22,576 nt of DNA from a virus, in IMG/VR virus record IMGVR_UViG_3300030102_000714, positions 1 to 22,576 of that record; one strand, 5' to 3'. Positions 10,345 through 22,401 of the stretch are shown here, in pieces. The notes under the pieces are model-generated. The model was not told the origin of the DNA. It ran no database searches and was given only the letters and a program-made list of their open reading frames with translations. Each line of letters begins with the position of its first letter. The first letter of the stretch is position 1. The translations under genes were made by a program, and so were the position numbers.

Positions 10345-11393
10345 TATGCTGCTTTCCCACCAAAGAAATTAGGAAAACCACCTGCAGCACCAACTGCTCC
10401 TAGACCCGCGATTCCTAGTCCAAGAAGTTGTGAAGATCTACTTGGTGGTGGAGTTGTTGTTCTTGATACAGTTTGTTGTAACGCTGGAACACCTCTGAAT
10501 ATATCAGATAAGAAACCTACTCTCTGGAATGGTAAAGCCTCTTGTGCCAATTCATTTGCTCTTGCTACATCAAGTTCTTTCTGTCCTTGTTGTTGTTGCA
10601 GACCACCTATTCCAAGCAATGTATTTACATCTTGGACACCTAACTGCTGCCCTAATTGACCAAGAGCAGCAGTTGATGTACCAAGTTGCCCGATTGTCTG
10701 ACCGAGTTGTCCAGTAGTCGCACCAAGTTGTCCAGTAGTTTGTCCTAATTGTCCAGTTAATTGTGCTTGTCGTAACGCTTGTTGTGCTCTTTGTGTCGCT
10801 GCTTGTTGTGCCAAGTTCTGTGCTTGTTGAAAACCAGCAGATCTTAATTGTGCACCAGTTCTTGCTTGTTGATCCATGACATTTCTTGCAATCTCTGCTT
10901 GAGCTATGCCTTGTCTAGATCCACCAAACGCACCACTTCCTATAGCTTGTCCAGCTAATTGATTCTGTTGCATCTGCCCTTGTCTTGCTATATCGGCTTG
11001 TGTCGCTGCAATCACATCTTCTGTAAATGGATTCATAAATTCTCTAAAAGATGTGGGATCAAAATCGTAAGTGGCTCCAGCAGTTTGATCTATTGCACTA
11101 CCAATAGTTCCTAATCCAGTACCGATTGTACCTAGTCCAGCACCAACAGCTCCTATACCTTGACCAATCGCCTCACTACCTCTTTGTATAAAAGGCTCGA
11201 AAGAACCTACACCTGCTCTAGCTCTGCTTATTGCATCTAGTTGACTTTGAGAAAGACCCGCCAACTGTTGTGGAGCAAAGGGCATGGTTGAACCAGGTTC
11301 TGTTACATTCTCTGCACTTTTAAATATATCTGCTAAAAATTCTTCTTGAAACGGTGCTAGTCTTACTATTTGTTCTTGTGTTGCTGTAGCCAT
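10344..11393 (-). CDS. Gln/Gly/Ala-rich ejection-type virion protein with TGQLG repeats
   Basis: A 349-residue protein with strongly biased composition. Residues 72-100 form a glycine-rich run (IGAVGAGLGTIGTGLGTIG). Residues 112-170 carry a block that I know from many phage virion proteins: FREFMNPFTEDVI, then QAIGSGAFGGSRQGIAQAE. Residues 185-215 are a Q/A helix, and residues 212-251 repeat a seven-residue phrase close to TGQLGQT. A hydrophobic, glycine-rich C terminus (322-348, LLGLGIAGLGAVGAAGGF) could insert in a membrane. These traits resemble small ejected proteins of podoviruses such as T7 gp14 or P22 gp20, which help form a channel across the cell envelope; the assignment is by analogy. 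The gene is joined to both neighbours by TAATG overlaps, which indicates coupled translation at matched levels. Confidence 0.75.
   Translation of the reverse strand: MATATQEQIVRLAPFQEEFLADIFKSAENVTEPGSTMPFAPQQLAGLSQSQLDAISRARAGVGSFEPFIQRGSEAIGQGIGAVGAGLGTIGTGLGTIGSAIDQTAGATYDFDPTSFREFMNPFTEDVIAATQADIARQGQMQQNQLAGQAIGSGAFGGSRQGIAQAEIARNVMDQQARTGAQLRSAGFQQAQNLAQQAATQRAQQALRQAQLTGQLGQTTGQLGATTGQLGQTIGQLGTSTAALGQLGQQLGVQDVNTLLGIGGLQQQQGQKELDVARANELAQEALPFQRVGFLSDIFRGVPALQQTVSRTTTPPPSRSSQLLGLGIAGLGAVGAAGGFPNFFGGKAA
10641..10760 (-). repeat. TGQLGQT heptad repeats within the 349-aa protein
   Basis: Residues 212-251 repeat a seven-residue unit (LTGQLGQ, TTGQLGA, TTGQLGQ, TIGQLGT and degenerate copies). 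The matching 21-base DNA repeat is visible as recurring CCAAGTTGTCCAGT-like phrases on the + strand. A period of seven with Leu at one position fits a helical or coiled bundle. Confidence 0.8.
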
Positions 11394-12205
11394 TATGCGA
11401 CCCTCTCTAGTTCAGACATCATTTCATACATTCTTGCAGCTCCAATGTCTCTGTCTCCACCGCCTGCACCTCTAACTGCTTTTGCAGTTAACACAAACTC
11501 TCCGTCTGATAGTCTTGCTGGTACAGAATCACTTGTGCCTGTTCCAGGCCCTTCAACTTCACCACCACCAGCGGCGGTCATTATTCCTACGTTTTTGTTT
11601 CTATCTTCTTCTTGTTTCCTTAAATCATTAAAATATCTTTTTCTATCTTCATCGTCATCTAGATTGTAACTCTTATCTCCAATAAAGCCAACACCTAATC
11701 TAGATTCACCTTTTGGATCTGGTCTTAGTTTAAATTCTTCTTGTTTTGGCTCTTCTCCAGTGAGTGCAGCTAAACCACCAATACCACCAATAGTTGCTAT
11801 ACCAGTAGGAGTCTTAGCAAAATCTACTGCCTTTTGAAAAAATGAAGGCTCTGGTGTCGGAACAAACTTAGGAATAGAAGAACTAGCTAAACCTGGAGCG
11901 GCACTATCTATTCCACTCGCAACAACAGAATCTGTAACTGCTTGTGTTCCAGCAGCCGTGGCACTTGGTGCGGCAGCCGTGAACAATTTACCACCACTTG
12001 CAGCATATCCACCAATACCACCGAGAAGTGCAGCTTTCAATGCGTCATCTGTGTCGGCACCTGCAGCGAGTGACCCTATACCTGCACCTAGAGCAGAACC
12101 TATGGCGGCAGAACCGAGTGGACCACCTATAGCAAAACCAATAGTGCCACCTATAACTGGAGCTGCTTTTTTTAAAATTTTTCTAAAACTTTTAAAAATA
12201 CCCAT
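11393..12205 (-). CDS. Membrane-active-looking virion protein with tape-measure-type C-terminal motif
   Basis: A 270-residue protein in two parts. The N terminus begins with a basic amphipathic segment (MGIFKSFRKILKKAAP). It continues into a long glycine/alanine zone (17-72) rich in GxxxG spacing, the pattern of glycine-zipper membrane helices, and a second hydrophobic stretch lies near 134-148 (IATIGGIGGLAAL). The C-terminal 55 residues carry GPGTGTSDSVPARLSDGEFV followed by LTAKAVRGAG. This signature ends many marine phage virion and tape-measure-like proteins and is of unknown function. I infer a protein that leaves the virion during infection and inserts in the host envelope. A GAGAGGG about 7 bases before the downstream gene's ATG lies within this gene's end. 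It starts directly after the stop of the 99-residue gene. Confidence 0.75.
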   Translation of the reverse strand: MGIFKSFRKILKKAAPVIGGTIGFAIGGPLGSAAIGSALGAGIGSLAAGADTDDALKAALLGGIGGYAASGGKLFTAAAPSATAAGTQAVTDSVVASGIDSAAPGLASSSIPKFVPTPEPSFFQKAVDFAKTPTGIATIGGIGGLAALTGEEPKQEEFKLRPDPKGESRLGVGFIGDKSYNLDDDEDRKRYFNDLRKQEEDRNKNVGIMTAAGGGEVEGPGTGTSDSVPARLSDGEFVLTAKAVRGAGGGDRDIGAARMYEMMSELERVA

Positions 12206-12505
12206 TTACGACACCGATACAGTAACATTACCTAATGTAGCAGTTCCAGAAGATCCGTCAACACCTGCTATGTTTAATAAACTTATTTTAACATCATTTC
12301 CAAATCTATACAAGGTTCCAGGCTCTAAACCCACATCACTTGTAGGCATGTTTGTAAAAACTAACTTAGTGTTTCTTCCTTCACCTGGATTATCAGATTG
12401 TTGTATAAAAAGATCTAAGGCTCTAACTAAATCAACAATGTATGTTTGATCGACCTCTCCAATCGGTAGAGGTAGTCTTGGTGAGACAAGATTTCTTGAA
12501 GACAT
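12206..12505 (-). CDS. Small conserved virion-associated protein (99 aa)
   Basis: A 99-residue protein without membrane segments. The N-terminal part contains LPLPIGEVDQTYIVDLVRALDLFI, a proline-bearing strand followed by a helix, and the C-terminal half looks like beta strands ending in GTATLGNVTVSVS. I recall small proteins of this form next to the gp10-like tail protein in marine phage genomes, but know of no assigned role. It overlaps the stop of the 621-residue gene in a TAATG junction with GGGAG a few bases upstream, so it is probably made in a fixed ratio to that protein. The ending TVSVS is close to the ending TVSTS of the 105-residue protein at 21416. A tail-hub accessory or assembly role is inference. 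Confidence 0.75.
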   Translation of the reverse strand: MSSRNLVSPRLPLPIGEVDQTYIVDLVRALDLFIQQSDNPGEGRNTKLVFTNMPTSDVGLEPGTLYRFGNDVKISLLNIAGVDGSSGTATLGNVTVSVS

Positions 12506-14370
12506 TATTTTCTCCCATCTGGTCTAATATCTACTCTTGGAGTTCCAAGTTTCCATGCTACACCCTGCTCCGTTGATTCGAGCTTCATGTTAAAAGATCT
12601 TCCTCTAAGTCTTACATTAATTAAATCAGTGAATTGTTCTACTGGTGCTGTTGCAGTTCTTACACTCGATCCACCTGAATTATTAGCATAAGTGCTACCA
12701 GGTCCTTTTCTTGCTTGTAACGTAAAAGTAGCACTTGGATTACCAGTATTTGATGTGGATCCGTTGAATGTAATATCTGGAATCAACTGCTTTATAAAAC
12801 TAAATTGATAACCATCACCAATATCTATTTGACTAGATTCAACAGATGCAGTCATAGCTGAGCCATCGTCATCATTACCACTCTCATGATTAAATAAATT
12901 AGGAGAGCCTGCGGCTATAGGAAATGATCGTATGCCTCTGTCAAGCCAAGCCGTTCTAGAAAGTGTTCCATAGTACCATATTTTTTCTAAATAATTATAT
13001 ATAACATATTTATCATTTTCTTCTGAACTAGCAGAAGGATAGAACCACCATATCTCACCCCATTTAGAATTGACTCCAGCAACAACTTTATCTGACTGTG
13101 CTGAGTTAAAATCTAAAAATACTTTATCTCTAACTGTGCAAGGTATTTGTTGTGTTTGTCCACCATACACATAAAAATTATCTTTACCCATCCAAAAAAC
13201 AGCATCATCCACTGCAACAGCAGCTTTAGGACTCATGATTGTAATATTTTTAGATAGCTCTTGTAGACCAAAAGTAAACGGAGGTCCGATAAATCTCATA
13301 CTGAATAAACTTCTATCTGTGTAAACAAGTATTTGTTGTTTTGTTTCTACAGCCTGCACAAAAGTAGAACCACTACTTAGTCTTAAATCTCCAGCAGTAT
13401 TCGTGGCAGTGGGAGTAAAATCAGTCAAAGACTCTTGAGATCCGAAGCGAATAAGTAAAGGATCTTGTGTCGTGGTTCCAATAGTATTTGCTCCAAAAAC
13501 AATAACATGTCTATCAAGATCTGATACTAATACTTGTTTCGCAATAGTTGGTGCATCTGAAGCACCAGACAAACTTGTTATATTTACTGCGGCTGTGCCA
13601 GTTCCATTTGATTTATCCCAATGAAAGACACCACCGTCTCTTGCATTAATTAGTAAATCTTCACCAAAATTATCATGACTCCACAAACGAAGTTGAGCCG
13701 TTGTGCCACTTGCTGCGGCTTGACCCCAACCAAAAGTTGATAAATCAGCGTTTACACCACCATATCCACCTGCACCCCAGCCATTACCACCAACACCAGT
13801 GTTAAGACCAACATTAATTTGATATACTCCGTCTACACCAGAGCCACCATTACCACTATCGGATGAATTTGCAGTTGCAGTCGCTGTTATTTTATAAGAA
13901 TTAGCATTAACAACGGATGTGATTTGATGCTCTTTATTTAATACAGAAGCCGTGATGTTACCACCTAGAGTAACTGCACCAGATATTGTAACAAAATCAT
14001 TTGCCACCGCACCATGAGAAGAGTCAGTTACTACTAATTCAGCGGAACCATCGGTTGCTGCAAAGGTAATACTATTAGTAGAAGTTTTACGAGTGGGAGT
14101 AACATCAAAAAAAGTGCCACCTTCTTCTATGTAATATTTTAAATGTGTGCCTACGCCTAAAAAGTTAGAGCCGTCTAACGCTATCCAGTTATGTAAAGCT
14201 CTGGCTGTTCCTTCATAAGTGTTGTCAGTTGCTTTAACCCAACCACCTATTTTTTCTGGGAAACCTGCATAGAATCTAACTTTTTCACAATCAAAAAAGC
14301 CACCTTCATTTGAGTAAGAGGTGATCTCTCTATTTATACCTGGTCTAAATTTTAAACTAGTTAATGGCAT
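12505..14370 (-). CDS. P22 gp10-like tail hub/packaged-DNA stabilisation protein
   Basis: A 621-residue beta-rich protein with the characteristic opening FRPGINREITSYSNEGGFFD and EKIGGW. That opening marks a large marine phage family related to P22 gp10, the protein that plugs the neck and connects it to tail needle and fibres. The N-terminal domain (1-100) is followed by an inserted strand-rich module (about 105-185) with Thr/Ala repeats. A tryptophan/glycine linker (GWGAGGYGG, WGQAAASG) comes next. The rest looks like a beta-propeller (RLWSHDNFGEDLLINARDGG, VFWMGKDNFYVYGG, WGEIWWFYP), ending with RVDIRPDGRK. No catalytic motif is seen. An AAGAGGT lies 4 bases before the ATG. The gene follows the two dioxygenases and precedes the ejection proteins, as expected for the tail hub. 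The inserted module could instead be a receptor or carbohydrate-binding domain. Confidence 0.8.
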   Translation of the reverse strand: MPLTSLKFRPGINREITSYSNEGGFFDCEKVRFYAGFPEKIGGWVKATDNTYEGTARALHNWIALDGSNFLGVGTHLKYYIEEGGTFFDVTPTRKTSTNSITFAATDGSAELVVTDSSHGAVANDFVTISGAVTLGGNITASVLNKEHQITSVVNANSYKITATATANSSDSGNGGSGVDGVYQINVGLNTGVGGNGWGAGGYGGVNADLSTFGWGQAAASGTTAQLRLWSHDNFGEDLLINARDGGVFHWDKSNGTGTAAVNITSLSGASDAPTIAKQVLVSDLDRHVIVFGANTIGTTTQDPLLIRFGSQESLTDFTPTATNTAGDLRLSSGSTFVQAVETKQQILVYTDRSLFSMRFIGPPFTFGLQELSKNITIMSPKAAVAVDDAVFWMGKDNFYVYGGQTQQIPCTVRDKVFLDFNSAQSDKVVAGVNSKWGEIWWFYPSASSEENDKYVIYNYLEKIWYYGTLSRTAWLDRGIRSFPIAAGSPNLFNHESGNDDDGSAMTASVESSQIDIGDGYQFSFIKQLIPDITFNGSTSNTGNPSATFTLQARKGPGSTYANNSGGSSVRTATAPVEQFTDLINVRLRGRSFNMKLESTEQGVAWKLGTPRVDIRPDGRK

Positions 14371-14379
14371 TTGTACCTC

Positions 14380-14964
14380 TTATTTAAACGGCTCACCACA
14401 AAACCATGTTACCAAAGAGTATCTTGTTCCTTTTGTTACTGGTTTTACTCTATGTTGCATATAAGACGGAAAAACTATTATTGTGCCCATCTTAGCTAAA
14501 ATTGTATCTTTTGCAAAAAACTCAAACTCACCACCCTCATACTCATCATTTAATATTATTGACATAGATAATTTTCTAGTTTTACCATGTGTATATTTAT
14601 TTCCGTTTTCAAATCGTGTAAAACCATTACCATCTTGATGAAATTTAAAATGTCCGTCTTTATTATATCGTGCTATCTGCATCCTTTCAGATGAGTCTAT
14701 TTGAAAATTCCAATTTGAATTTGTATTAGCTGTATGTAGATAATTCCAAACTATTTCATAAAGCCATTGTTCATCACTCCAAGCAACATCAGTAATTCTT
14801 TGGTCTTTGGCAGTTTTACCCTCTTTATTTAAATTTGATATTACCTCTGCTGGTTTCCAATCTTTTGCTAATCCTATTATTTTTTTACATGTTTCTTCAT
14901 CGAGTTCTCTTTCAAAGAACCAATAATCATCAGTTGCATTTTTTTGGATTGGAATACTGTCCAT
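14380..14964 (-). CDS. 2-oxoglutarate/Fe(II) dioxygenase, PKHD/prolyl-4-hydroxylase type
   Basis: A 194-residue 2-oxoglutarate-dependent oxygenase, which would use O2 and 2-oxoglutarate to hydroxylate a protein or small molecule, giving succinate and CO2. The iron triad is visible: His109 and Asp111 in KFHQDG, and His171 in MQHRV. Arg181 in KGTRYSLVTW is the expected 2-oxoglutarate carboxylate ligand. The core strands RKLSMSIILNDEYEGGEFEF and GTIIVFPSYMQH match the PKHD-type (YbiX/PiuC) hydroxylases. The length is slightly short, because there is no added C-terminal domain. GGGGGG in the end of the upstream gene lies 8 bases before the ATG, and the two dioxygenase genes are only 3 bases apart. 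The substrate is unknown. The position between adhesin and tail-hub genes makes a virion protein a candidate substrate, but that is inference. Confidence 0.92.
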   Translation of the reverse strand: MDSIPIQKNATDDYWFFERELDEETCKKIIGLAKDWKPAEVISNLNKEGKTAKDQRITDVAWSDEQWLYEIVWNYLHTANTNSNWNFQIDSSERMQIARYNKDGHFKFHQDGNGFTRFENGNKYTHGKTRKLSMSIILNDEYEGGEFEFFAKDTILAKMGTIIVFPSYMQHRVKPVTKGTRYSLVTWFCGEPFK

Positions 14965-14967
14965 GTT

Positions 14968-15579
14968 TTAAACCCCCCATCTATCCCACAAATAACTATA
15001 CCAACCTGTAACTATAGTTTTCTCTTTCGTTTGTGAGATCTGACCGACATGAGTGTGTGTCCAATCTACAGGAAAAATAACAGTCTTACCTTTTTGTGCT
15101 TTGATAATTCTATTTTGATAAATAAACTTAGTGCCACCATCATCTAAATCATTTAAGTATGTCATGAAAACCAAAATTCTTTTTATGGTTTTATTAAAAC
15201 TACCATTTCTTTCAAAGTGTTCTATTTTAAAACCACCACCTATTGGATAATGTTGAATGTTATAACCTTCAACAATATTAAACCTAACAACATGTTCTAA
15301 ATGTGGGTATATTTTTACATAATCATCTAAACATTTTTGTAATTCAATGCGATAATCCGTAAAAGGTTGTTCCCAATAATTAGCATCTATTGGTAAATCT
15401 GTTGACTCTTTAAAATCTTTTTTAACAATACTACCTTGTTTATTGGTTATCGCTTGTCCTGGTTCATGTTTGTCTGGATTGTTTTTAAAATACTCAACTA
15501 TGGCATCACAAATTTCTTCGGGTATATGCCATGTTTGTATAAAGTCTTCATTTTTTGTTATTGGATTCTGATAATTCAA
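14968..15579 (-). CDS. 2-oxoglutarate/Fe(II) dioxygenase with an HxE metal motif, TTG start
   Basis: A second 2-oxoglutarate oxygenase, 203 residues, only distantly similar to its neighbour. The fold's signature strands are KRILVFMTYLNDLDDGGTKF and GKTVIFPVDW. The likely iron ligands are His121 and Glu123 in EHFERNG (HxE in place of the commoner HxD) and His175 or His177 in WTHTHVG. Lys187, in EKTIVTGWY, sits where the 2-oxoglutarate-binding Arg or Lys is expected. Relatives of this HxE type with the WTHTH phrase occur in marine cyanophages and other marine phages. The start is a TTG. An in-frame stop lies just upstream, no other start codon comes between, the next in-frame methionine is deep inside the fold, and AAGG lies 9 bases before the TTG. 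The substrate is unknown. Confidence 0.9.
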   Translation of the reverse strand: MNYQNPITKNEDFIQTWHIPEEICDAIVEYFKNNPDKHEPGQAITNKQGSIVKKDFKESTDLPIDANYWEQPFTDYRIELQKCLDDYVKIYPHLEHVVRFNIVEGYNIQHYPIGGGFKIEHFERNGSFNKTIKRILVFMTYLNDLDDGGTKFIYQNRIIKAQKGKTVIFPVDWTHTHVGQISQTKEKTIVTGWYSYLWDRWGV

Positions 15580-15592
15580 GGTTCTATGCCTT
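15577..15592 (-). promoter_or_regulatory. TTG initiation region of the second dioxygenase
   Basis: On the - strand, AAGG (complement of 15589-15592) overlaps the stop codon of the upstream gene and sits 9 bases before TTG (15579-15577). An in-frame TGA a few codons upstream rules out a longer reading, so this weak start is the only one that preserves the N-terminal strand of the enzyme. Confidence 0.65.
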
Positions 15593-15974
15593 ACTCATAT
15601 CTTTTCCAGCCAGTGGTATTATCTGCCTGGTATGCGTCTTCGTCCCAATAATATACATAATCATCATCTGGGTGATCGCCAAGTGGTGATTCCCAAATCC
15701 ATTTTTTGGTATTTAAAATCCAACTTGGTTGTGGTTTAGGTCTATAAAAAACATCATTTGTACTATCATAGATATAACCGATCCCAGCAAAGTTACCTCT
15801 CAAAGCAACGCCACCATCAGGTAATCCAGTATCAGTATCAATATGTTCACCTTGTCGTGTATTATATGATGTTTGAACCCATGTTTCGTTTTCTGGTAAG
15901 GTGTCTATGAAATCTTGTTCTGCAACAATTACATTTGTTACAATCCCATCTTCTACTTTTGCAAAATGTGCCAT
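15591..15974 (-). CDS. Small conserved fibre-neighbour protein (127 aa)
   Basis: A 127-residue protein beginning MAHFAKVEDGIVTNVIVAEQD. I recognise this opening from many marine cyanophage and other marine phage genomes, where it lies near tail fibre genes. The middle has TWVQTSYNTRQG and a GGVALRGNFAGIGYIYD strand pair. The C-terminal half is rich in Trp, Tyr and Asp (YRPKPQPSWIL, KKWIWESP, YVYYWDEDAY). The exposed aromatic residues suggest a small carbohydrate- or fibre-contacting domain, but its role has not been settled as far as I know. AGGGAT lies 5 bases before the ATG, overlapping the stop region of the adhesin-like gene. It could be a fibre tip, a fibre assembly chaperone or a minor baseplate component. 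Confidence 0.8.
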   Translation of the reverse strand: MAHFAKVEDGIVTNVIVAEQDFIDTLPENETWVQTSYNTRQGEHIDTDTGLPDGGVALRGNFAGIGYIYDSTNDVFYRPKPQPSWILNTKKWIWESPLGDHPDDDYVYYWDEDAYQADNTTGWKRYE

Positions 15975-15983
15975 GTTTTATCC

Positions 15984-17135
15984 CTAGCTTTGGAATTGAT
16001 ATTTAAGTACGACTATACCAGAGCCACCATTATTACCTCTTGTACCACCAGTTCCAGAGGCTCCACCTCCACCTCCTCCACCAGTGTTAGTGCCTCCTGC
16101 ACCACCTTGACAAAAGTTTGTACTTGCAGTTCCAGCACCACCGTTAGCTACACCACCAGTTCCTCCTGGTTTACCACGATTTGAATTATTGGAGTCGTTA
16201 CCTCCTCCGCCTCCGCCGCCACCAGAGCCACCAGTACTTGCTCTTATGTTAGATGGACCTGCACCAACATTGGCTCTTGCTCCACCTCCTCCGCCACCAG
16301 AGAATGTAAAACTTGGACCTAATATACTACTTGAACCACCTGATCCAGCAGTTCCGTTACCATTACTTGCATTAACATTTGGTGGTTGTGATCCTTTTCC
16401 ACCACCATTACCTGATGCAACGGGAGCCGAGCCACTTGATCTTCCAGGACTTACACCACCTCCTGGATTACCTTGACCTGATGTTCCTGGACCACCACTT
16501 GATGTTTTATTAGTTCCTCCAGCCGCTCCGCCACTACCAGAGCCTCCAGGGTTTCCAGGATTTGCCGCATTTCCTTGGTTAAATCCTGCACCTCCACCAC
16601 CTCCAGTAGATGATATATTAGAAAAAGTACTGGTTCCGCCTTGACTTCCTTCTTGTCCTTCGTTGCCAACAACACCCTCACCTTTGGCTCCACCACCACC
16701 TACAGTGATACTATAGTTTTGTGCAGAAACTGAGAGGTTGCCAGTACGCATACCTCCACCTCCGCCACCACCAGCGATTTGACCTCCGCCACCTCCGCCA
16801 CCAGCGACAACTAAGTATTCAACAGAGTTAGATCCAGCAGAGTTTCCACCATCATTAACAGCAAAAGTTCCAGATGAATTAAATCTATGTATTTTAAAGT
16901 TACCAGATGTTGTTACTGTACCACCAGTTGCAGATACATAAGCAACATTTTGCGAACCTCTAAAGTCACCCATTTGTATTTCACCAGATGTCGGTATAGT
17001 TCCATTGTTACCACTTATACCAGAGGGAACATTTGATCCACCAGAATAATATTCACTTAAACTTATTGGATTAGAACCACCAAACTCCGTTTGGATGGCT
17101 GACATTGCTATTGAGCCAGATGATGGAATTGCCAT
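15984..17135 (-). CDS. Polyglycine-rich adhesin / receptor-binding fibre protein
   Basis: A 383-residue structural protein. The first 62 residues contain two related short motifs, IPSSGSIAMSAIQTEFGG (3-20) and IPTSGEIQMGDFRG (47-60), joined by a PISLSEYYSGG loop; this is a common N-terminal attachment region of phage fibres. A strand-rich linker leads to EYLVVAGGGGGGG at about 106, after which the chain is dominated by glycine, with runs of up to eight, plus Ser, Asn, Pro and Thr to near residue 373. The protein closes with the hydrophobic strand SGIVVLKYQFQS. The layout resembles polyglycine-helix adhesins such as the S16 gp38 tip protein, whose exposed loops determine host range. It lies between the S74 fibre and a small fibre-neighbour protein. 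GGGG precedes the ATG by 6 bases. Confidence 0.8.
   Translation of the reverse strand: MAIPSSGSIAMSAIQTEFGGSNPISLSEYYSGGSNVPSGISGNNGTIPTSGEIQMGDFRGSQNVAYVSATGGTVTTSGNFKIHRFNSSGTFAVNDGGNSAGSNSVEYLVVAGGGGGGGQIAGGGGGGGMRTGNLSVSAQNYSITVGGGGAKGEGVVGNEGQEGSQGGTSTFSNISSTGGGGGAGFNQGNAANPGNPGGSGSGGAAGGTNKTSSGGPGTSGQGNPGGGVSPGRSSGSAPVASGNGGGKGSQPPNVNASNGNGTAGSGGSSSILGPSFTFSGGGGGGARANVGAGPSNIRASTGGSGGGGGGGGNDSNNSNRGKPGGTGGVANGGAGTASTNFCQGGAGGTNTGGGGGGGASGTGGTRGNNGGSGIVVLKYQFQS
16008..16805 (-). repeat. Polyglycine low-complexity coding region
   Basis: The segment encodes about residues 111-376 of the adhesin-like protein. It consists of irregular glycine runs of 3-8 separated by short Ser/Asn/Ala/Pro/Thr stretches, seen on the + strand as repeated CCACC/CCTCC triplets. 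The runs are not a collagen GXY pattern. Such tracts are prone to length variation by slippage. Confidence 0.85.
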
Positions 17136-17138
17136 TTA

Positions 17139-17417
17139 CTACCCCTTTTTTAATTCATCAATTTCTGCTTTTAAGTCTTTGATTGCCTCAATCAAGACTG
17201 CTGTAAGTTTACCATAATCTACTGATTTTGTTTGCATTTCATCATTGGCAGTTAAAACAACCTCTGGAACAATAGCCTCCATGTCTTGTGCTAATACACC
17301 TACTTTTGTTTTTGCATCATCTTGGTCGTTTCTTTTGTAATAAACACCTTGCATTTGCATAACTTTTTCTATGCCATTTTCTATATTAGAAATATCTGTT
17401 TTTAATCTTTTATCAGA
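17139..17417 (-). other. Predicted S74 autocleaved chaperone domain
   Basis: Residues 335-426 of the fibre. The Ser-Asp-Lys-Arg-Leu-Lys motif at its start and the downstream conserved core indicate cleavage between Phe334 and Ser335, releasing a chaperone of about 10 kDa. The cleavage itself is inferred from the family. Confidence 0.75.
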
Positions 17418-18419
17418 AAAGGCAGTAACATCATCATTAAATGTTGCCGCTCCAGCTGCTGACATGTCTAATGTCATAGCAGTAATCCCTGACCCACCAT
17501 CATTGCCTCTTACAACAAAATCTGCATCTGATGGACCTACTGTAATTCTATATGAAGTATTTGATATATTACTATGTGTAGCAATCGTAGTGCCACCATC
17601 TGCAAACACTATATCTCCACCATCAGCATCTAACGTAATGTCACTACCACAATCTATCGTTAAATCACCACTATCAGATATAGTAGAACCATTTATTGTA
17701 ATATCATCTACAGTCAATGTTGTGAGTGTTCCTAGTGATGTTATGTTGCCTTGAGCCGCAGTTGACAAAGTTCCTGCAAGTTCTCCACTAGAACCATAGA
17801 TAACAGCTTTGCTATTAACAACAGTATTGGCACTGGAGCCATCAAGTAAATTTAGTTCGGCTGCAGTAGACGTAACAGAAGTACCATTTATAGATAAAGC
17901 ATCTGTTTCAGTAGTGCCATTAACATCTATACTACCTTCTAAATCAATATCGCCATTTACAATTAAATCATCATCCACAGTGAGATCAACTGCTGCAAGA
18001 TGTGCAAAAGCATCAACAACCGCTGCTCCAGAACCAGCACCATCCAAATAAACAGCCTTTGCAGTGCCAGGTGCTATTGTAACGTTTGCACCAGAGCCTT
18101 GTGATATAATTATATTTTGTGAACCACTTGTTGCATTTTCAATAATATGAACTCTTTTTAAAGTATTCGGACCTATGGTTATTGTACAAGCAGAATCTAG
18201 TGTACCAGTATATTTAATATACATGGCTCTACCCTCATCTGCCGAACCGTCTGCTACAGTGGTAGTATGTGTGTCAGCATTTGTGGTTATGCCTTCAGTG
18301 CCAAAACCTAGTGCCTCACCTATAAGTTCTAAATTTGTATTAGTTGAAGCACCCCATGTGCCTGATTCATCACCTGTGGCTATTTCTTTCAACCTTAAAT
18401 TATTAGTATATTCTGGCAT
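17139..18419 (-). CDS. Tail fibre with C-terminal S74 intramolecular chaperone
   Basis: A 426-residue trimeric-type fibre. The N terminus (LRLKEIATGDESGTWGASTN, residues 8-27) is a conserved virion-attachment segment in marine phage fibres. Residues 45-330 form a Thr/Ser/Asp/Gly-rich repetitive beta shaft with phrases such as DDDLIVNGDIDLEGSIDVNG and DDITINGSTISDSGDLTIDC. The C-terminal 90 residues are a Peptidase_S74 domain: SDKRLKTDI starts at Ser335, VGVLAQDMEAIVPEVV is the core, and SVDYGKLTAVLIEAIKDLK leads into a terminal coiled coil. In this family the domain helps trimerise the fibre and then cuts itself off just before the serine, so a mature chain of about 334 residues is expected. 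AAAGGG precedes the ATG at a TAATG junction. The host ligand is unknown. Confidence 0.93.
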   Translation of the reverse strand: MPEYTNNLRLKEIATGDESGTWGASTNTNLELIGEALGFGTEGITTNADTHTTTVADGSADEGRAMYIKYTGTLDSACTITIGPNTLKRVHIIENATSGSQNIIISQGSGANVTIAPGTAKAVYLDGAGSGAAVVDAFAHLAAVDLTVDDDLIVNGDIDLEGSIDVNGTTETDALSINGTSVTSTAAELNLLDGSSANTVVNSKAVIYGSSGELAGTLSTAAQGNITSLGTLTTLTVDDITINGSTISDSGDLTIDCGSDITLDADGGDIVFADGGTTIATHSNISNTSYRITVGPSDADFVVRGNDGGSGITAMTLDMSAAGAATFNDDVTAFSDKRLKTDISNIENGIEKVMQMQGVYYKRNDQDDAKTKVGVLAQDMEAIVPEVVLTANDEMQTKSVDYGKLTAVLIEAIKDLKAEIDELKKG

Positions 18420-19294
18420 TATGCTACCCTTTCAATCCAATTAGCTACTTGATCTGGAACAATCAAACCCCAGACATTCTCCTCTCCAGTAGAACCAGTT
18501 CCACTAACTCCAGTTAACGATACCACAGAACTAGCTGTTATTGCAACTGTTCCTAATGAAATTGTTGCTCCCGATAAGGTAACTGCCGTATTCGCATCTG
18601 CGGTAACAGATTCACTACCTAGTGCAGTTGTTCCTACAACTGTTGTTGTTGGTGCTCCAGTAGAAGTTATTAATGTAGGTGTGCCGACAGAGGTTGTCCC
18701 AGCAACACCAGTGGGTGAAACTAAGGCAGTTCCTACAACAGATTCATCACCAAAACCTATTGTACCTGTTAATCCAGTTTCGGTTACTCTAGCTCCAGCT
18801 GCTGCTAAAACGTCACCTACGGCAGTGGTTCCTACATTACCTGTTACTGAAAAAATACATGTACCAGTAACAGTAACTGTTCCTACAGCACCAGTACCTA
18901 CGGCAGAAGTTGGTACGACATCTTGTCCAGGAATAGCAGCGACACCACCACCCCAAACTCCAGCACCCCAGCCATCATTACCCCAACCAGTTAAAAATCC
19001 AGTTGTGGCAGATACGCCAGTTACTACGGCAGTAATTGGTATTTTAGGAAGGACAGTTCCAACGGCAGTTGTGGCAGATACACCAGTTGCACCAAACACA
19101 AACACGCTAGTTGCAACGACAGTTCCAACAGAACCAGTTGCCTCTAGTCCAGTTTCTATTACAAGAGAACCAGCGGTAGTTGCTTCATCACCAACGGCTG
19201 TCGTACCAGCTACGCCAGTAACAGCAAAGGAGGTATTACCAATACCACCCCAACCGACAGCACCCCAGGTGCCTTGTCCCCAGCCGTTAGCCAT
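18419..19294 (-). CDS. Repetitive Gly/Thr/Val-rich virion protein with WG clusters
   Basis: A 291-residue protein built from Gly, Thr, Val, Ala and Ser with few charges, which looks like an all-beta repeat structure. Two tryptophan-glycine clusters, GWGQGTWGAVGWGG (4-17) and GWGNDGWGAGVWGGG (103-117), divide it. Between and after them, a phrase like TGVAGTTAVG recurs with a spacing of exactly 22 residues at 26, 48, 70 and 92, and again at 151, 173 and 195, then less regularly to 270. The end is WGLIVPDQVANWIERVA. I recall similar repeat proteins with WG blocks and a WGLIVPDQ-like end in marine phage genomes, without a proven role. Surface decoration, a fibre shaft or a carbohydrate-binding array are possible. 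An AAGG lies about 9-10 bases before the start. The gene lies just before the S74 fibre gene. Confidence 0.75.
   Translation of the reverse strand: MANGWGQGTWGAVGWGGIGNTSFAVTGVAGTTAVGDEATTAGSLVIETGLEATGSVGTVVATSVFVFGATGVSATTAVGTVLPKIPITAVVTGVSATTGFLTGWGNDGWGAGVWGGGVAAIPGQDVVPTSAVGTGAVGTVTVTGTCIFSVTGNVGTTAVGDVLAAAGARVTETGLTGTIGFGDESVVGTALVSPTGVAGTTSVGTPTLITSTGAPTTTVVGTTALGSESVTADANTAVTLSGATISLGTVAITASSVVSLTGVSGTGSTGEENVWGLIVPDQVANWIERVA
18485..19225 (-). repeat. 22-residue (66-base) repeats in the 291-aa protein
   Basis: The region encodes residues 24-270. The conserved core TGxxxTTAVG recurs at intervals of exactly 22 residues in two blocks (starting at Thr26, 48, 70, 92 and at Thr151, 173, 195), separated by the second WG cluster. 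The + strand shows the matching GCCAGTTAC/ACGGCAGT phrases. Confidence 0.8.
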
Positions 19295-19305
19295 AAGGAT
19301 TTACC

Positions 19306-19758
19306 TTATGCTATACGGATAATAGCGTTTGAAGCGTCAGCAGTTGGAAACTGGATGGTAAATGTACCAGATGTTGAAGTTTTATTAGATGTAAAATCTA
19401 AAACACAAACAGCTTTATTACTATTAGTGTCATTATATATTAACGCACCCATAGCTGTTATTGTAGCTGTTGTAAAACTTAAATCTGAGAAATCTGTAAA
19501 AGCAGTTGTACCAGAACTAGTTGGAGCAACTTTTGTTAAAGTGCCACCACCAGTTGCATAAGTTCCACTTGAAGCAACTTCTCCAGTTGTAGTAAACGCA
19601 GTTGTTGTTGCACCTAATGTTGCAGTTGTTGATGATTTACCACCACTACCTTCTGCATAAAGTGCTAATTTGAAAGCGTTTCCGTTTGTTGCAAAATTGT
19701 GTGTACCTGTCAATAACTCTGTTTTGAAGGAAGTACACATTGCTTGTGCTATAGCCAT
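19306..19758 (-). CDS. Conserved marine phage structural protein (150 aa)
   Basis: A 150-residue Thr/Ala/Gly-rich, probably all-beta protein with a helical start (MAIAQAMCTSFKTELLTG). The conserved phrases are FKLALYAEG, YATGGGTLT, FTDFSDLSFTTATITAMGAL and the closing block FTIQFPTADASNAIIRIA. I recognise this combination as a family found repeatedly between neck and fibre genes of marine phages, usually annotated only as hypothetical. It has no membrane segment or catalytic motif. It has the strongest ribosome-binding site seen in the window, AAGGAG 8 bases before the ATG, which suggests high expression and fits an abundant virion component. A decoration or tail-attached protein is the likeliest role. 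Its stop lies 11 bases from the next gene, whose AAGG lies in the gap. Confidence 0.8.
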   Translation of the reverse strand: MAIAQAMCTSFKTELLTGTHNFATNGNAFKLALYAEGSGGKSSTTATLGATTTAFTTTGEVASSGTYATGGGTLTKVAPTSSGTTAFTDFSDLSFTTATITAMGALIYNDTNSNKAVCVLDFTSNKTSTSGTFTIQFPTADASNAIIRIA

Positions 19759-19759
19759 A

Positions 19760-20047
19760 TTAGAGTCTCCTTATATATTCAGCCGTTTCCTTTTGACCAC
19801 TCGATCGTAAGGCTTGAATGATAGTACCACGCTCTTCTCTTCTTGCCAAGAGGAGATAATGATATAGAACATTCTTGAGATGTTCTCTAAATTGGTTGGC
19901 TTGTTGCCTTATGTGTGGTGGTGCTTGATCTGATATGCTAACTATTTTATCAACAGCTAAATCTGCTATTTGTTCGTTTGTTAAACCACCCTTGTCTGAG
20001 GTCATTACATTTACTGTTCCAGCTTGTGATACTCCTACGTTAAACAT
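19760..20047 (-). CDS. Small conserved helical phage protein (95 aa)
   Basis: A 95-residue protein. The first 25 residues are strand-like and probably flexible (MFNVGVSQAGTVNVMTS). The rest is helical: LTNEQIADLAVDKIVSISDQ, the conserved phrase APPHIRQQANQFREHLKNVL, then HYLLLARREERGTIIQAL and a closing AEYIRRL. Proteins with the same PPxIRxQAxxF phrase and RRL ending are common in marine phages near neck genes, with no function that I know. The helix pair with many Arg, Lys and Gln residues could bind DNA or pack in the head-tail junction. GAGGAG lies 6 bases before the ATG and the gene is separated from the upstream stop by nothing, so it is firmly in the operon. Confidence 0.8.
   Translation of the reverse strand: MFNVGVSQAGTVNVMTSDKGGLTNEQIADLAVDKIVSISDQAPPHIRQQANQFREHLKNVLYHYLLLARREERGTIIQALRSSGQKETAEYIRRL
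19767..19772 (-). promoter_or_regulatory. Strong Shine-Dalgarno of the 150-aa structural gene
   Basis: On the - strand this reads AAGGAG, 8 bases before the ATG at 19758 and just inside the end of the upstream gene. It is the closest match to the full consensus among the starts inspected here. Confidence 0.8.
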
Positions 20048-20764
20048 TTATTTCTCCTCGTAAGTAACACCAGGTATGTCTTCTCTACCTACAATGTTAG
20101 GTGTAGAGTCTAAAGGCTCTGGTGGTTGTAGTTTTGATTTTCTTGTAATCAACATACTACCTTGTGTTGTGGTGGATACAATCGGATCTTCTAATCTATG
20201 ATATCCATAGAGTTTCTGATCCTCTTTTACATTTGTATCAAGCAATGATGAATTGTGTGCAATGTTAACTTTTATACCTTTTGATATAGCAATCGCTAAC
20301 CAAAACTCACAACATCCTCTGCCTGCTTCAGCAAAAGCTACGTTACTATATGTAAAATCTATGCCATACAAATGTATTTCTTTCACTTCTTGAGCTATTG
20401 CATAAGCAATACTATAAGCAACTGTATTGTTAAGATAAGCATATTTAGTTTTTTGTAGGACTTCTTGTAAAGGATATTCAACAACATCTGGACATCTTTT
20501 ATCTAAAACACAAGAAAAAATAGGAACACCTAACTTTGTTCGTAATCTATCTGTCATAATATTTGTTTGTTTACCAGCGTTAGGACTATCGAGAAATCTT
20601 GATGGTGGATCCATCATAAAACATTTATCGTGATAAATAACGCCAGATATAGAATTGATCGCCCAGACTTCATCAAACTTCTCGCTTCTGATTCTAGACA
20701 TTAGATACTCGCTACAACTATTGCCGAGACCGACAATGGCTATGCTACCTATTTTCTTCCCCAT
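20048..20764 (-). CDS. Rossmann-like protein resembling DUF115/MAF glycan enzymes
   Basis: A 238-residue soluble alpha/beta protein. The N terminus SIAIVGLGNSCSEYL (7-21) is a strand followed by a glycine-rich turn, as in nucleotide-binding folds. It is followed by FDEVWAINSISGVIYHDKCFMMDPPSRF. The most telling part is EIHLYGIDFTYSN (129-141) plus AGRGCCEFWLAIAISKGIKV (147-166), which recalls the core of DUF115/motility accessory factor proteins and related sialic/pseudaminic acid transferases (LxGxD then a helix of the same kind). A transferase acting on a surface glycan or nucleotide-linked sugar is therefore possible, but no catalytic set can be proven by eye. The C-terminal 50 residues are proline-rich and probably disordered. 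AAGGGAAG is placed before the ATG. Its place among neck and decoration genes is unusual. Confidence 0.7.
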   Translation of the reverse strand: MGKKIGSIAIVGLGNSCSEYLMSRIRSEKFDEVWAINSISGVIYHDKCFMMDPPSRFLDSPNAGKQTNIMTDRLRTKLGVPIFSCVLDKRCPDVVEYPLQEVLQKTKYAYLNNTVAYSIAYAIAQEVKEIHLYGIDFTYSNVAFAEAGRGCCEFWLAIAISKGIKVNIAHNSSLLDTNVKEDQKLYGYHRLEDPIVSTTTQGSMLITRKSKLQPPEPLDSTPNIVGREDIPGVTYEEK

Positions 20765-20774
20765 AATGCTTCCC

Positions 20775-21419
20775 TTATTGTTTCGGAATTTTTACCAAAC
20801 CTTCTCTATAAGCATCAGTATTCTCTTGTCCTTCTCCATAAACTTTAAGTCTGGATATGGCTTCACCATATCTACTAGTATAAAGTTGTAATAGATCAGA
20901 CTCCCCTTTCATAAAACTATATGCCTCAATCAAACAAGCGTACAACAAAGCATCTGGTGCATTAGTGCTTATCCAAGTTGTGCCAGAATCATCTGTGGTA
21001 AGTGAGGCAGGTCTATAATAATAATGTAATTCTGCTACATAATCAGCATCTGGTGTTGGAGCTACTATATAATTATCAACATCAAAAGAAGCATAATATA
21101 TTGGAGATCCAGTTGTTGCTGGATTAGGAGTATACTGTTGAATGAAGTTTACATCTTTTTGTAAAAGAAAAACATTTGCACTATCTTTTATATAAGATAA
21201 AGAAAAGGTAGCTAAGTAATCACTTGGTTTTTGTAAAAACTTATTACCAGTTGTTAAACCACCCTCAACATTTTTTCTAAAAAAATCTAAATCTACAGAT
21301 TTTAATATTCTTTCTTCTGCATTTTTGATAATGAAATCTAACTCATTTACAAAAGTTGTCTCATCATTTTCTGTCCAGTCTTGTATTGACTGTTTTAATG
21401 TAGTCAAAGTAAAGCTCAT
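20775..21419 (-). CDS. Neck/adaptor-like protein (T7 gp11 / SU10-adaptor type)
   Basis: A 214-residue protein with the layout of phage adaptor proteins, which form a ring beneath the portal and connect it to the tail. The N-terminal helices LKQSIQDWTENDETTFVNELDFIIKNAEERI (8-38) are typical of that family. They are followed by a strand-rich middle with LQKPSDYLATFSLSYI, GSPIYYASFDVDNYIVAP and ADYVAELHYYYRPASLT. A C-terminal helical part contains APDALLYACLIEAYSFMKG and ends with the RLKVYGEG helix. The assignment rests on fold-like pattern, length and location next to a second neck-type protein. It overlaps the previous gene by ATGA. It could equally be described as a tail-tubular A-like protein. 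Confidence 0.8.
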   Translation of the reverse strand: MSFTLTTLKQSIQDWTENDETTFVNELDFIIKNAEERILKSVDLDFFRKNVEGGLTTGNKFLQKPSDYLATFSLSYIKDSANVFLLQKDVNFIQQYTPNPATTGSPIYYASFDVDNYIVAPTPDADYVAELHYYYRPASLTTDDSGTTWISTNAPDALLYACLIEAYSFMKGESDLLQLYTSRYGEAISRLKVYGEGQENTDAYREGLVKIPKQ

Positions 21420-21733
21420 GATGTACTCACTGTTACTGTTCCCAGACTAGTTGTAGCCGTAAACGGTGTCATCTTTTGTCCTATTATACCATTTCCAGCA
21501 TTTGTGTATACTATAAATGCCGTTAAGTCTGTATCTTGATTTGGTCTTGGTTCATACAAAGCTGTTGGATCTGGGCCTGGATAATTAGGCTCTAGTTGAG
21601 GATGTTTAGCTTCATACTCATCTGGACCTACCTTAAGTCCATTCCATTCTTTTCTCATTTCACGCAAACGATAACGGAATCCAGACCTATCTGAATATCC
21701 CCATGCGTATCTGCCACTTGCGTACCTAGCCAT
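21416..21733 (-). CDS. Conserved small phage protein, DRSGF family (105 aa)
   Basis: A 105-residue protein opening with MARYASGRYAWGYSDRSGFR, then REMRKEWNGLKVGPDEYEAKHPQLEP and DPTALYEPRPNQD. This string is highly conserved in marine phages. In some relatives, as I recall, the DRSG region carries cysteines as part of a zinc-ribbon-like motif; here there are none, so no metal site is expected. The last 40 residues are strand-like and end in GTVTVSTS. Its role is not established, but it is always near neck genes in my experience. It is wedged between the two adaptor-like genes, with ATGA and TAATG-type overlaps on the two sides, and GAGGT lies a few bases before the ATG. A small neck or tail-joining subunit is a reasonable guess. 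Confidence 0.8.
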   Translation of the reverse strand: MARYASGRYAWGYSDRSGFRYRLREMRKEWNGLKVGPDEYEAKHPQLEPNYPGPDPTALYEPRPNQDTDLTAFIVYTNAGNGIIGQKMTPFTATTSLGTVTVSTS

Positions 21734-22401
21734 TAGTACCTCAAGTATGAAATGTTAGGTGTTAATTTGAGAGGTGTGCTACTTGCATCTTCTGCTGCGG
21801 CTCTTTGAAACTCTTCTTCATAGATAGCTTTTAGTATTTGTATTCTGTCGGGTGCTCTTTTTATAGCTATGTAATAAGCAAGTCCCGCTGCCATGCAAGG
21901 TAAGAATCTAAAAGGTGCGTCAGTTGTATTAACTAAAGCATCTGCGTCCTCTATTCGTCTTACATAGTAAAACACTAAAGTATAAGAGGTATCTGGAGTT
22001 GACCATAATGTGATCGTAGGAGTTACTTGTCTATCAAAAAAATACTGACTTGGTTGTCCAGAATTATCTTTGTTAGGTATTTTTAGATACTCACTACGGC
22101 TCATTTGAGTTAAAGTAAAATCTGTACCACTACTGTTTCGTAGAACAACTTCTAATAAATCTACAACTGTTGCATCTAAAAGAGTATAAGAAGCAGTTCC
22201 AGAAGTTACCGCCACAGTTGACTGCTTAACAGTCCAAAGATTTAATCCTCTGTTTGCCCAGTCAGCAAACATAAGATTCAAAGAACGTCTAGCTGTTCTA
22301 GCATCGTAACCAGTTCTCATTTCTAAGCCACATCTTTCGTATGCCTCTTCAATAAGTTCTGCTACATCTAAATTAAAATCTCTTGAGCTTGAAGTTGCCA
22401 T
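21733..22401 (-). CDS. Neck/tail accessory protein (P22 gp4 / T7 gp11-like)
   Basis: A 222-residue protein resembling the tail accessory factor family that closes the portal in P22-like and many marine podovirus-like phages. The N-terminal helices DVAELIEEAYERCGLEMRTG and RRSLNLMFADWANRGLNLWT (about 11-57) are followed by strands VAVTSGTASYTLLDATVVDL. Next come QPSQYFFDRQVTPTITLW and SYTLVFYYVRRIEDAD, and then the conserved helical block FRFLPCMAAGLAYYIAIKRAPDR, ending in PNISYLRY. The set and order of these phrases match a family I know well from marine phage genomes. It starts right after the stop of the basic protein gene, with AAGG about 10 bases upstream within it. Together with the 214-residue gene it supplies two related neck components. 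Confidence 0.85.
   Translation of the reverse strand: MATSSSRDFNLDVAELIEEAYERCGLEMRTGYDARTARRSLNLMFADWANRGLNLWTVKQSTVAVTSGTASYTLLDATVVDLLEVVLRNSSGTDFTLTQMSRSEYLKIPNKDNSGQPSQYFFDRQVTPTITLWSTPDTSYTLVFYYVRRIEDADALVNTTDAPFRFLPCMAAGLAYYIAIKRAPDRIQILKAIYEEEFQRAAAEDASSTPLKLTPNISYLRY

Follow-up and report, generated by a model that had tools for sequence, protein, structure and literature searches.

Two anciently diverged 2-oxoglutarate oxygenases with a predicted prolyl-hydroxylase fold in the tail-fibre gene block of a marine phage

The oxygenase locus

The window analysed here is a whole IMG/VR virus record (IMGVR_UViG_3300030102_000714) of 22,576 bases. On its minus strand lie, in the direction of transcription, genes for an S74 tail fibre, a glycine-rich adhesin, a phrog_7759 protein (p7759), enzyme B, enzyme A and a phrog_3287 protein, here called the hub (Table 1). 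The latter family is termed 'virion structural protein' in PHROG, and its counterpart in phage DSL-LC04 is named 'stabilization protein'. A sequence-only reading of this DNA had placed two 2-oxoglutarate (2OG) dioxygenases between a polyglycine adhesin and the tail hub. Both open reading frames and all eight residues named as ligands were confirmed at their positions, and the stated location holds as well, except that the p7759 gene separates enzyme B from the adhesin and that the hub is phrog_3287. An in-frame TGA was read by eye 18 bases upstream of the TTG start of enzyme B. Since only 11 bases separate the end of the p7759 gene from the start of B, and 3 bases the end of B from the start of A, the three genes appear to be co-transcribed. 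No near DNA match to positions 12505-22401 was found in the phages collection. The structural block of the window also encodes a 238-aa protein (20048-20764) for which PHROG yields no match with E of 0.1 or below.

Table 1 Features of the oxygenase locus (positions in the window)
Feature	Position	Strand	Details
phrog_3287 virion structural / stabilization ('hub') protein	12505..14370	-	PHROG match; flanks cassette on the other side
Enzyme A, 2OG/Fe(II) oxygenase, PKHD/P4H-like	14380..14964	-	194 aa, ATG start; HxD...H...R (H109, D111, H171, R181)
Enzyme A, probable 2OG ligand R181 codon	14422..14424	-	invariant in alignment of 40; aligns with PKHD Arg
Enzyme A, distal metal ligand H171 codon	14452..14454	-	invariant in alignment of 40
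Enzyme A, metal motif H109-Q110-D111 codons	14632..14640	-	H and D invariant in alignment of 40
Enzyme B, 2OG/Fe(II) oxygenase, P4H-like	14968..15579	-	203 aa, TTG start; HxE...H...K (H121, E123, H177, K187)
Enzyme B, probable 2OG ligand K187 codon	15019..15021	-	aligns with Lys of solved P4Hs
Enzyme B, distal metal ligand H177 codon	15049..15051	-	invariant in alignment of 40
Enzyme B, metal motif H121-F122-E123 codons	15211..15219	-	H and E invariant in alignment of 40
phrog_7759 protein (p7759)	15591..15974	-	127 aa; PHROG match; often directly downstream of glycine-rich genes
Glycine-rich adhesin	15984..17135	-	383 aa; PF21722 Gly_rich_2
Tail fibre with C-terminal Peptidase_S74 chaperone domain	17139..18419	-	profile matches

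Family membership and active-site residues

Both enzymes pass the 27-bit cut-off of PF13640 (2OG-FeII_Oxy_3), enzyme A with 61.7 bits (1.4e-16) and enzyme B with 34.4 bits (4.4e-8). By profile and tree they are assigned to already known families, namely PHROG 61 (E 1.7e-36 for A, 1.5e-31 for B) and the cyanophage clusters T4-GC 412 (A) and 240 (B), the respective genes of S-SM1 and S-RSM4 falling inside the A and B clades. Compared with the PHROG 61 isolates, the window carries polA and phrog_3287, with 30-43% identity to isolate proteins among the matches listed.

The ligand sets that had been assigned to the two enzymes, HxD...H...R in A and HxE...H...Lys in B, were borne out. An alignment of 40 A-type proteins including that of the window shows no variation at H109, D111, H171 and R181; the same applies to H121, E123, H177 and K187, and also H175, in a corresponding alignment of 40 B-type proteins. 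Hence, HxE together with Lys is a constant signature of the B clade, and the notion that it is a distinguishing oddity of the B gene in the window had to be given up. The commonest residue sets among 332 aligned oxygenases (first 111 loci plus the window) are HDHR (135), HEHK (85, an inflated count, B having been the query for 80 of these loci) and HHHR (65).

In sequence-profile searches, the solved proteins nearest to enzyme A are PKHD enzymes (PiuC, Sbal_3634 and YbiX; E 4e-14 to 8e-14), the Arg of which aligns with R181, yet A stays below every cut-off of the NCBIfam PKHD-type equivalogs (PRK05467, YbiX/PiuC), reaching at best 45.7 versus 143 bits. Enzyme B is nearest to bacterial and viral P4H (E 6e-8 and 5e-5, respectively), and their Lys aligns with K187. 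Enzyme A displays the P4H residue set HxD...H...K/R in the form HxD...H...R; PHD2 likewise has Arg in place of Lys. Enzyme B departs from this set by carrying HxE for HxD, with His and Lys present, and is therefore named P4H-like in fold rather than a P4H. A literature search for the PHD2 substitution D315E found nothing. A and B are two separate, conserved enzymes, both of them presumably active.

Predicted fold

AlphaFold models of both enzymes are confident, with pLDDT values of 91.3 (A) and 92.1 (B). Foldseek comparison with the PDB returned named prolyl hydroxylases in 47 of the 50 best rows for A and in all 50 for B, counts that are inflated because the PDB holds many PHD2 entries. In VIA-align, where rows within Z 1 were treated as tied, enzyme A matched algal P4H with peptide (Z 18.1; 3.0 A, 168 residues), Pseudomonas P4H with EF-Tu (Z 17.6; 3.2 A, 169 residues), viral vCPH of PBCV-1 (Z 17.6; 2.6 A, 160 residues) and PHD2 (Z 17.5), with PiuC (16.2) and OGFOD1 (15.2) lower. 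Enzyme B matched the Pseudomonas P4H with EF-Tu best (Z 19.9; 3.0 A, 179 residues), along with Trichoplax PHD (19.0), algal P4H (18.9), PHD2 (18.6) and vCPH (Z 18.4; 2.5 A, 163 residues). Overall, both enzymes score Z 15-20 against P4H, PPHD, PHD2 and vCPH. The Pseudomonas enzyme (4iw3, 4j25), the top fold for B and within the tied top rows for A, is a host enzyme with only 20% (A) and 14% (B) identity to the phage proteins in the case of 4iw3. Likewise, vCPH (5c5t) has the same fold as A and B and a C-terminal-side Lys that aligns with K187 of B, but differs by HxD versus HxE in B and by Lys versus Arg in A, at identities of 21% (A) and 18% (B) in the VIA alignments. The models, taken together with conservation, show that A and B share the predicted fold of protein prolyl hydroxylases, and this shared fold leaves the substrate unfixed.

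One possible target class is host proteins, such as a translation factor, a ribosomal protein or a surface receptor, which A and B would hydroxylate late in infection. The best fold match of B, being a bacterial prolyl hydroxylase solved with EF-Tu, points in this direction, as does the occurrence of OGFOD1, a ribosomal prolyl hydroxylase according to the accessible part of its source (PMC4396695), among the matches of A; copies in replication-side loci (see below) would fit a host target, too. The frequent adhesin neighbourhood of these genes is not predicted by such a role, which is considered unlikely.

Descent and selection

A tree was calculated from 173 A and B proteins of at least 165 aa after dropping duplicates, using a quick search that left several long branches. 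In it, the A and B proteins split deeply into two clades (SH-aLRT 97 and 99), which upholds the initial view that they are not recent duplicates. Each clade holds genes of podovirus-like contigs, of pelagiphages and of the cyanomyoviruses S-SM1 and S-RSM4. Among the 89 rows labelled A, four, not including the window, sit next to the B group, and two of these four have long branches. Comparison with three near relatives each gave dN/dS values of 0.14-0.19 for A and 0.08-0.23 for B; the values for the hub (0.09-0.11 from two comparisons) and the adhesin (0.12-0.30 from three) are in the same range. Both genes are under purifying selection. Prediction and conservation together show that A and B are anciently diverged and selectively maintained.

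Within the A clade, four genes located by DnaB (L090, L092, L094 and L099) nest on short branches among A genes of fibre loci (L091, L093, L095, L096, L098, L100 and L101). Closely related A-type genes thus switch between DnaB-helicase and adhesin-p7759 regions, which suggests recent relocation or duplication.

Linkage to the adhesin and p7759

Relatives were sampled as the best 80 of 600 loci fetched with B, 25 loci fetched with A, the best 80 of 599 fetched with the hub and the best 80 of 263 fetched with p7759. The profile for the oxygenase family was the product of uncurated iteration, and glycine-rich genes were recognised by their composition. Near relatives repeat the order S74 fibre, adhesin, p7759, oxygenases and hub with varying oxygenase content, and the variants found in one syntenic slot are B and A, B with an HxH-type oxygenase and A, A only, B only, or none. 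A and B are part of an oxygenase cassette of variable content that lies among the tail-fibre genes of marine phages. An oxygenase lies within two genes after p7759 in 32 of the 80 B-fetched loci (best 80 of 600) and in 4 of the 25 A-fetched ones. An A-type gene is present in 55 of the same B-fetched loci, in 29 of them within an unbroken oxygenase run; an obligate A-B pair was rejected, as a B-type gene occurs in only 2 of the 25 A-fetched loci, many contigs being short.

The cyanomyoviruses S-SM1 and S-RSM4 carry homologues of the adhesin and p7759 followed by B and A, with one HxH oxygenase sitting between p7759 and B in S-RSM4. In S-SM1, GC 240 and GC 412 are adjacent as in the window, B and the best-scoring A being the first two genes after the adhesin-p7759 pair. 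The 174 kb scanned of this genome hold 11 oxygenase-family matches, 6 of which lie at 33.5-38.6 kb, directly after the sole adhesin-p7759 pair found. The whole genome of HTVC023P has three family matches, all between the hub and a stretch of four consecutive glycine-rich genes, and a fifth glycine-rich gene stands among them. Furthermore, among 49 hub loci with more than 5 kb upstream, p7759 was present in 18 of 25 carrying A or B versus none of 24 carrying neither (p = 5e-8, an optimistic value given the bias from relatedness and choice of anchors).

Nevertheless, oxygenases are no constant companions of the adhesin-p7759 pair. Among the 80 p7759 loci (best 80 of 263, chosen regardless of oxygenases, contigs partial), any oxygenase was found in 8 and none by family profile in 72; hence, the adhesin module can do without these enzymes. 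In 61 of these 80 loci a glycine-rich gene lies directly upstream of p7759 (a gene upstream being present in 73), and in 67 one lies at most two genes up or one gene down, so that p7759 is the usual adhesin partner and the oxygenases are optional extras. In support of the sequence-only reading, the order of adhesin, p7759 and oxygenase is found again in marine phages that are not related to one another, yet most of the p7759 loci sampled show no oxygenase. Of the best 80 of 599 hub loci, 15 carry an oxygenase.

Other gene contexts

Of the A and B genes in loci L001-L105, 69 of 87 and 59 of 85, respectively, have a fibre-module gene as their nearest recognised neighbour, whereas the other 18 and 26 have a gene from outside this module or none. 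These remaining contexts comprise helicase/polymerase (10 A, 3 B), packaging/sheath (2 A, 14 B), glycosyltransferase (0 A, 3 B) and no recognised neighbour (6 A, 6 B). A- and B-type genes also adjoin DnaB helicase, terminase, polA and psbA/nrdAB, as in P-TIM40, where a B-type gene lies between nrdAB and psbA. Thus, fibre-exclusive A/B genes were rejected; at the family level, such genes do occur independently of the fibre locus, which the sequence-only reading had itself named as grounds against its proposal. S-SM1 carries both types at two places, the fibre locus (L283:33496-38636) and the recombination genes (L285).

Such variability may indicate an insertion hotspot, i.e. that the interval between fibre and hub is a hypervariable slot for accessory genes whose substrates are unrelated to the fibre and whose position provides only late expression. 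In line with this, cassette content varies within one syntenic slot, A/B-type genes also occur at terminase, DnaB, polA and psbA regions, and the fibre zone of pelagiphages and cyanomyophages is described, in the accessible part of the source, as a hypervariable host recognition cluster (PMC7029224). The p7759 association within one hub background (18/25 versus 0/24) and the same neighbours in cyanomyoviruses with other backbones speak against a mere hotspot, both being open to shared-descent and sampling bias. Overall, this explanation is regarded as somewhat unlikely.

Alternatively, A and B could act on small molecules or nucleic acids, with nucleotides, DNA bases, lipids, glycans or 2OG pools as targets. 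For cyanophages, DNA repair and nitrogen signalling have been proposed in the accessible part of one study (PMC3037559); the recombination region of S-SM1 (L285:16833-17405, 42858-43454) has a paralogue of type A flanked by uvsY and uvsW, and a weak one of type B flanked by uvsX and gp41; glycosyltransferase and terminase genes are neighbours of B-type genes in L017 and L022; and in sequence, A comes closest to PKHD enzymes, PiuC among them. The closest folds, however, act on peptides, and a fibre gene block is an odd site for repair or metabolism. Activity on such targets is deemed about as unlikely as action on host proteins.

p7759 and proline content of the adhesins

As to the adhesin partner, phrog_7759 occurs in auto-, podo- and myovirus records (the window, L081 and L192-L270), and p7759 may be a partner or chaperone dedicated to glycine-rich adhesins. 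According to the accessible part of the source, cyanophage Pam3 (gp24-gp25) similarly has a receptor-binding domain rich in glycine and a small partner protein dedicated to it (PMC9608196). Unlike for the Pam3 chaperone, such a role of p7759 is inferred, its profile having no credible solved match; p7759 as a known chaperone by sequence was rejected, since the best profile match to any solved chain (E 1.4) was an unrelated protein.

If A and B hydroxylated prolines of the adhesin, neighbouring adhesins might be enriched in this residue. Proline content was therefore compared in 102 adhesins, 38 beside A/B and 64 without, after dropping 2 of 104 with other oxygenases. Glycine-rich domains contain 3.7% proline beside A/B versus 1.7% without (p = 1e-4, kinship ignored) and 1.1 versus 0.24 PG pairs per 100 residues, whereas the remaining proteins encoded in these loci have slightly less proline (3.2% versus 3.6%). 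Residues N, Q, E, T, A, V and W differ between the two adhesin groups as well. An X-Pro-Gly preference was not found in these domains (Pro-then-Gly 0.30 versus 0.25, with Gly at 0.36 and 0.35). Pairing on a tree of 88 rows (duplicate p7759 rows dropped) gave four supported independent pairs, with no trend and 0.05 unreachable; over all branches, supported or not, there are 10 such pairs. Composition alone does not show a proline-hydroxylated adhesin, as descent could explain the proline excess and as loci L008 and L010 contradict it, having both enzymes yet 0 and 1 proline in the glycine-rich domain. The excess counts neither as support for adhesin prolyl hydroxylation nor as its disproof.

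Further enzymes in oxygenase-rich regions

A third oxygenase type occurs in the same cassettes, matching PF13759 with E 2e-10 to 1e-17 (four tested); examples are L002:3877-4488, L106:5912-6448, L107:6417-6980 and L108:7636-8268, among others. Its motif HxH...H, with R, K, F or L at the 2OG-ligand column, was found in 104 of the 332 aligned proteins and possibly represents a three-histidine iron site.

Six phage 'ferrochelatase' genes of phrog_2954 (L109:8477-9121, L108:8261-8881, L106:7557-8198, L274:6401-6967, L111:10527-11126 and 11113-11643) were compared with Pfam ferrochelatase, and none matched at E up to 1. The 'ferrochelatases' of L109 and L063 have an HxD...H pattern and match the oxygenase profile; 'ferrochelatase' gp67 of HTVC023P gave no oxygenase-profile match at 1e-4. 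From these patterns, phage 'ferrochelatases' may be misannotated oxygenases. Tryptophan halogenase genes are likewise seen in oxygenase-rich regions, namely L106:1-1243 (HTVC008M, annotated) and L043:3734-5200 (phrog_2928).

Relation to published work

Several reports, each accessible in part, touch upon these families. Sullivan et al. (2010) tabulated GC 104, 240, 412 and 611 as 2OG oxygenases (PMC3037559), and Wittmers et al. (2022) described eight non-orthologous 2OG families in pelagiphages, often together with 'ferrochelatases' (PMC9599517). Enrichment of phrog_61 in seasonal marine viruses was reported as well, the accessible part of that text leaving its role undetermined (PMC11561400), and S-SZBM1 is stated to have nine 2OG oxygenase copies scattered over its genome (PMC9146016). 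In S-TIM4, a 2OG gene was mutated, and its product (ORF23) is given as absent from the particle proteins in the accessible part of the report (PMC6224464), which neither helps nor hurts the view of A and B as assembly enzymes. Viral P4H and collagen tail fibres have been mused upon in the accessible part of one source (PMC9301287), while that of another says that bacteria and viruses are without the prolyl hydroxylases needed for phage collagen-like domains (PMC3368898). A literature search, mostly without full texts, found no report of hydroxylated tailed-phage virion proteins and no published report of an adhesin-p7759-oxygenase module.

Proposed function and implications

Fold and neighbourhood put the hydroxylation of fibre-tip proteins ahead of the other hypotheses, weak as it still is. 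The tentatively favoured view, at less than even confidence, is that A and B hydroxylate peptidyl residues of these proteins, probably prolines. Both enzymes would be made late, together with the fibre-tip genes, each binding Fe(II) by its His-x-Asp/Glu...His triad and 2OG by Arg or Lys. Using O2, they would hydroxylate one residue kind, proline in the first place, on the adhesin, p7759 or the S74 fibre during tail-tip assembly, thereby altering the stability of the tip or its specificity for the receptor. With their different active-site residues, A and B would each be responsible for a site or residue type of its own. From the original suggestion of virion- or host-modifying enzymes, two conserved enzymes with a fold like that of protein-acting prolyl hydroxylases remain, while the proline excess is not separable from descent.

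As far as the accessible parts of the literature go, 2OG oxygenase genes are common in ocean phages, often in multiple copies, and their published roles (DNA repair, nitrogen signalling, seasonal AMGs) are guesses. The prolyl-hydroxylase fold and the recurrent adhesin-p7759 neighbourhood narrow the candidate substrates to a short list that is measurable in the available isolates S-SM1, S-RSM4 and HTVC023P. In a broader, rather unlikely scenario, the interchangeable hydroxylase-fold cassettes of ocean phages would modify the phages' own receptor-binding tip (adhesin or p7759), and host recognition would then hinge on the oxygen, iron and 2OG that the infected cell contains. If fibre-tip hydroxylation proves wrong, a common kind of phage gene is still without a substrate; if it is true, tail-tip chemistry would be tuned after translation.
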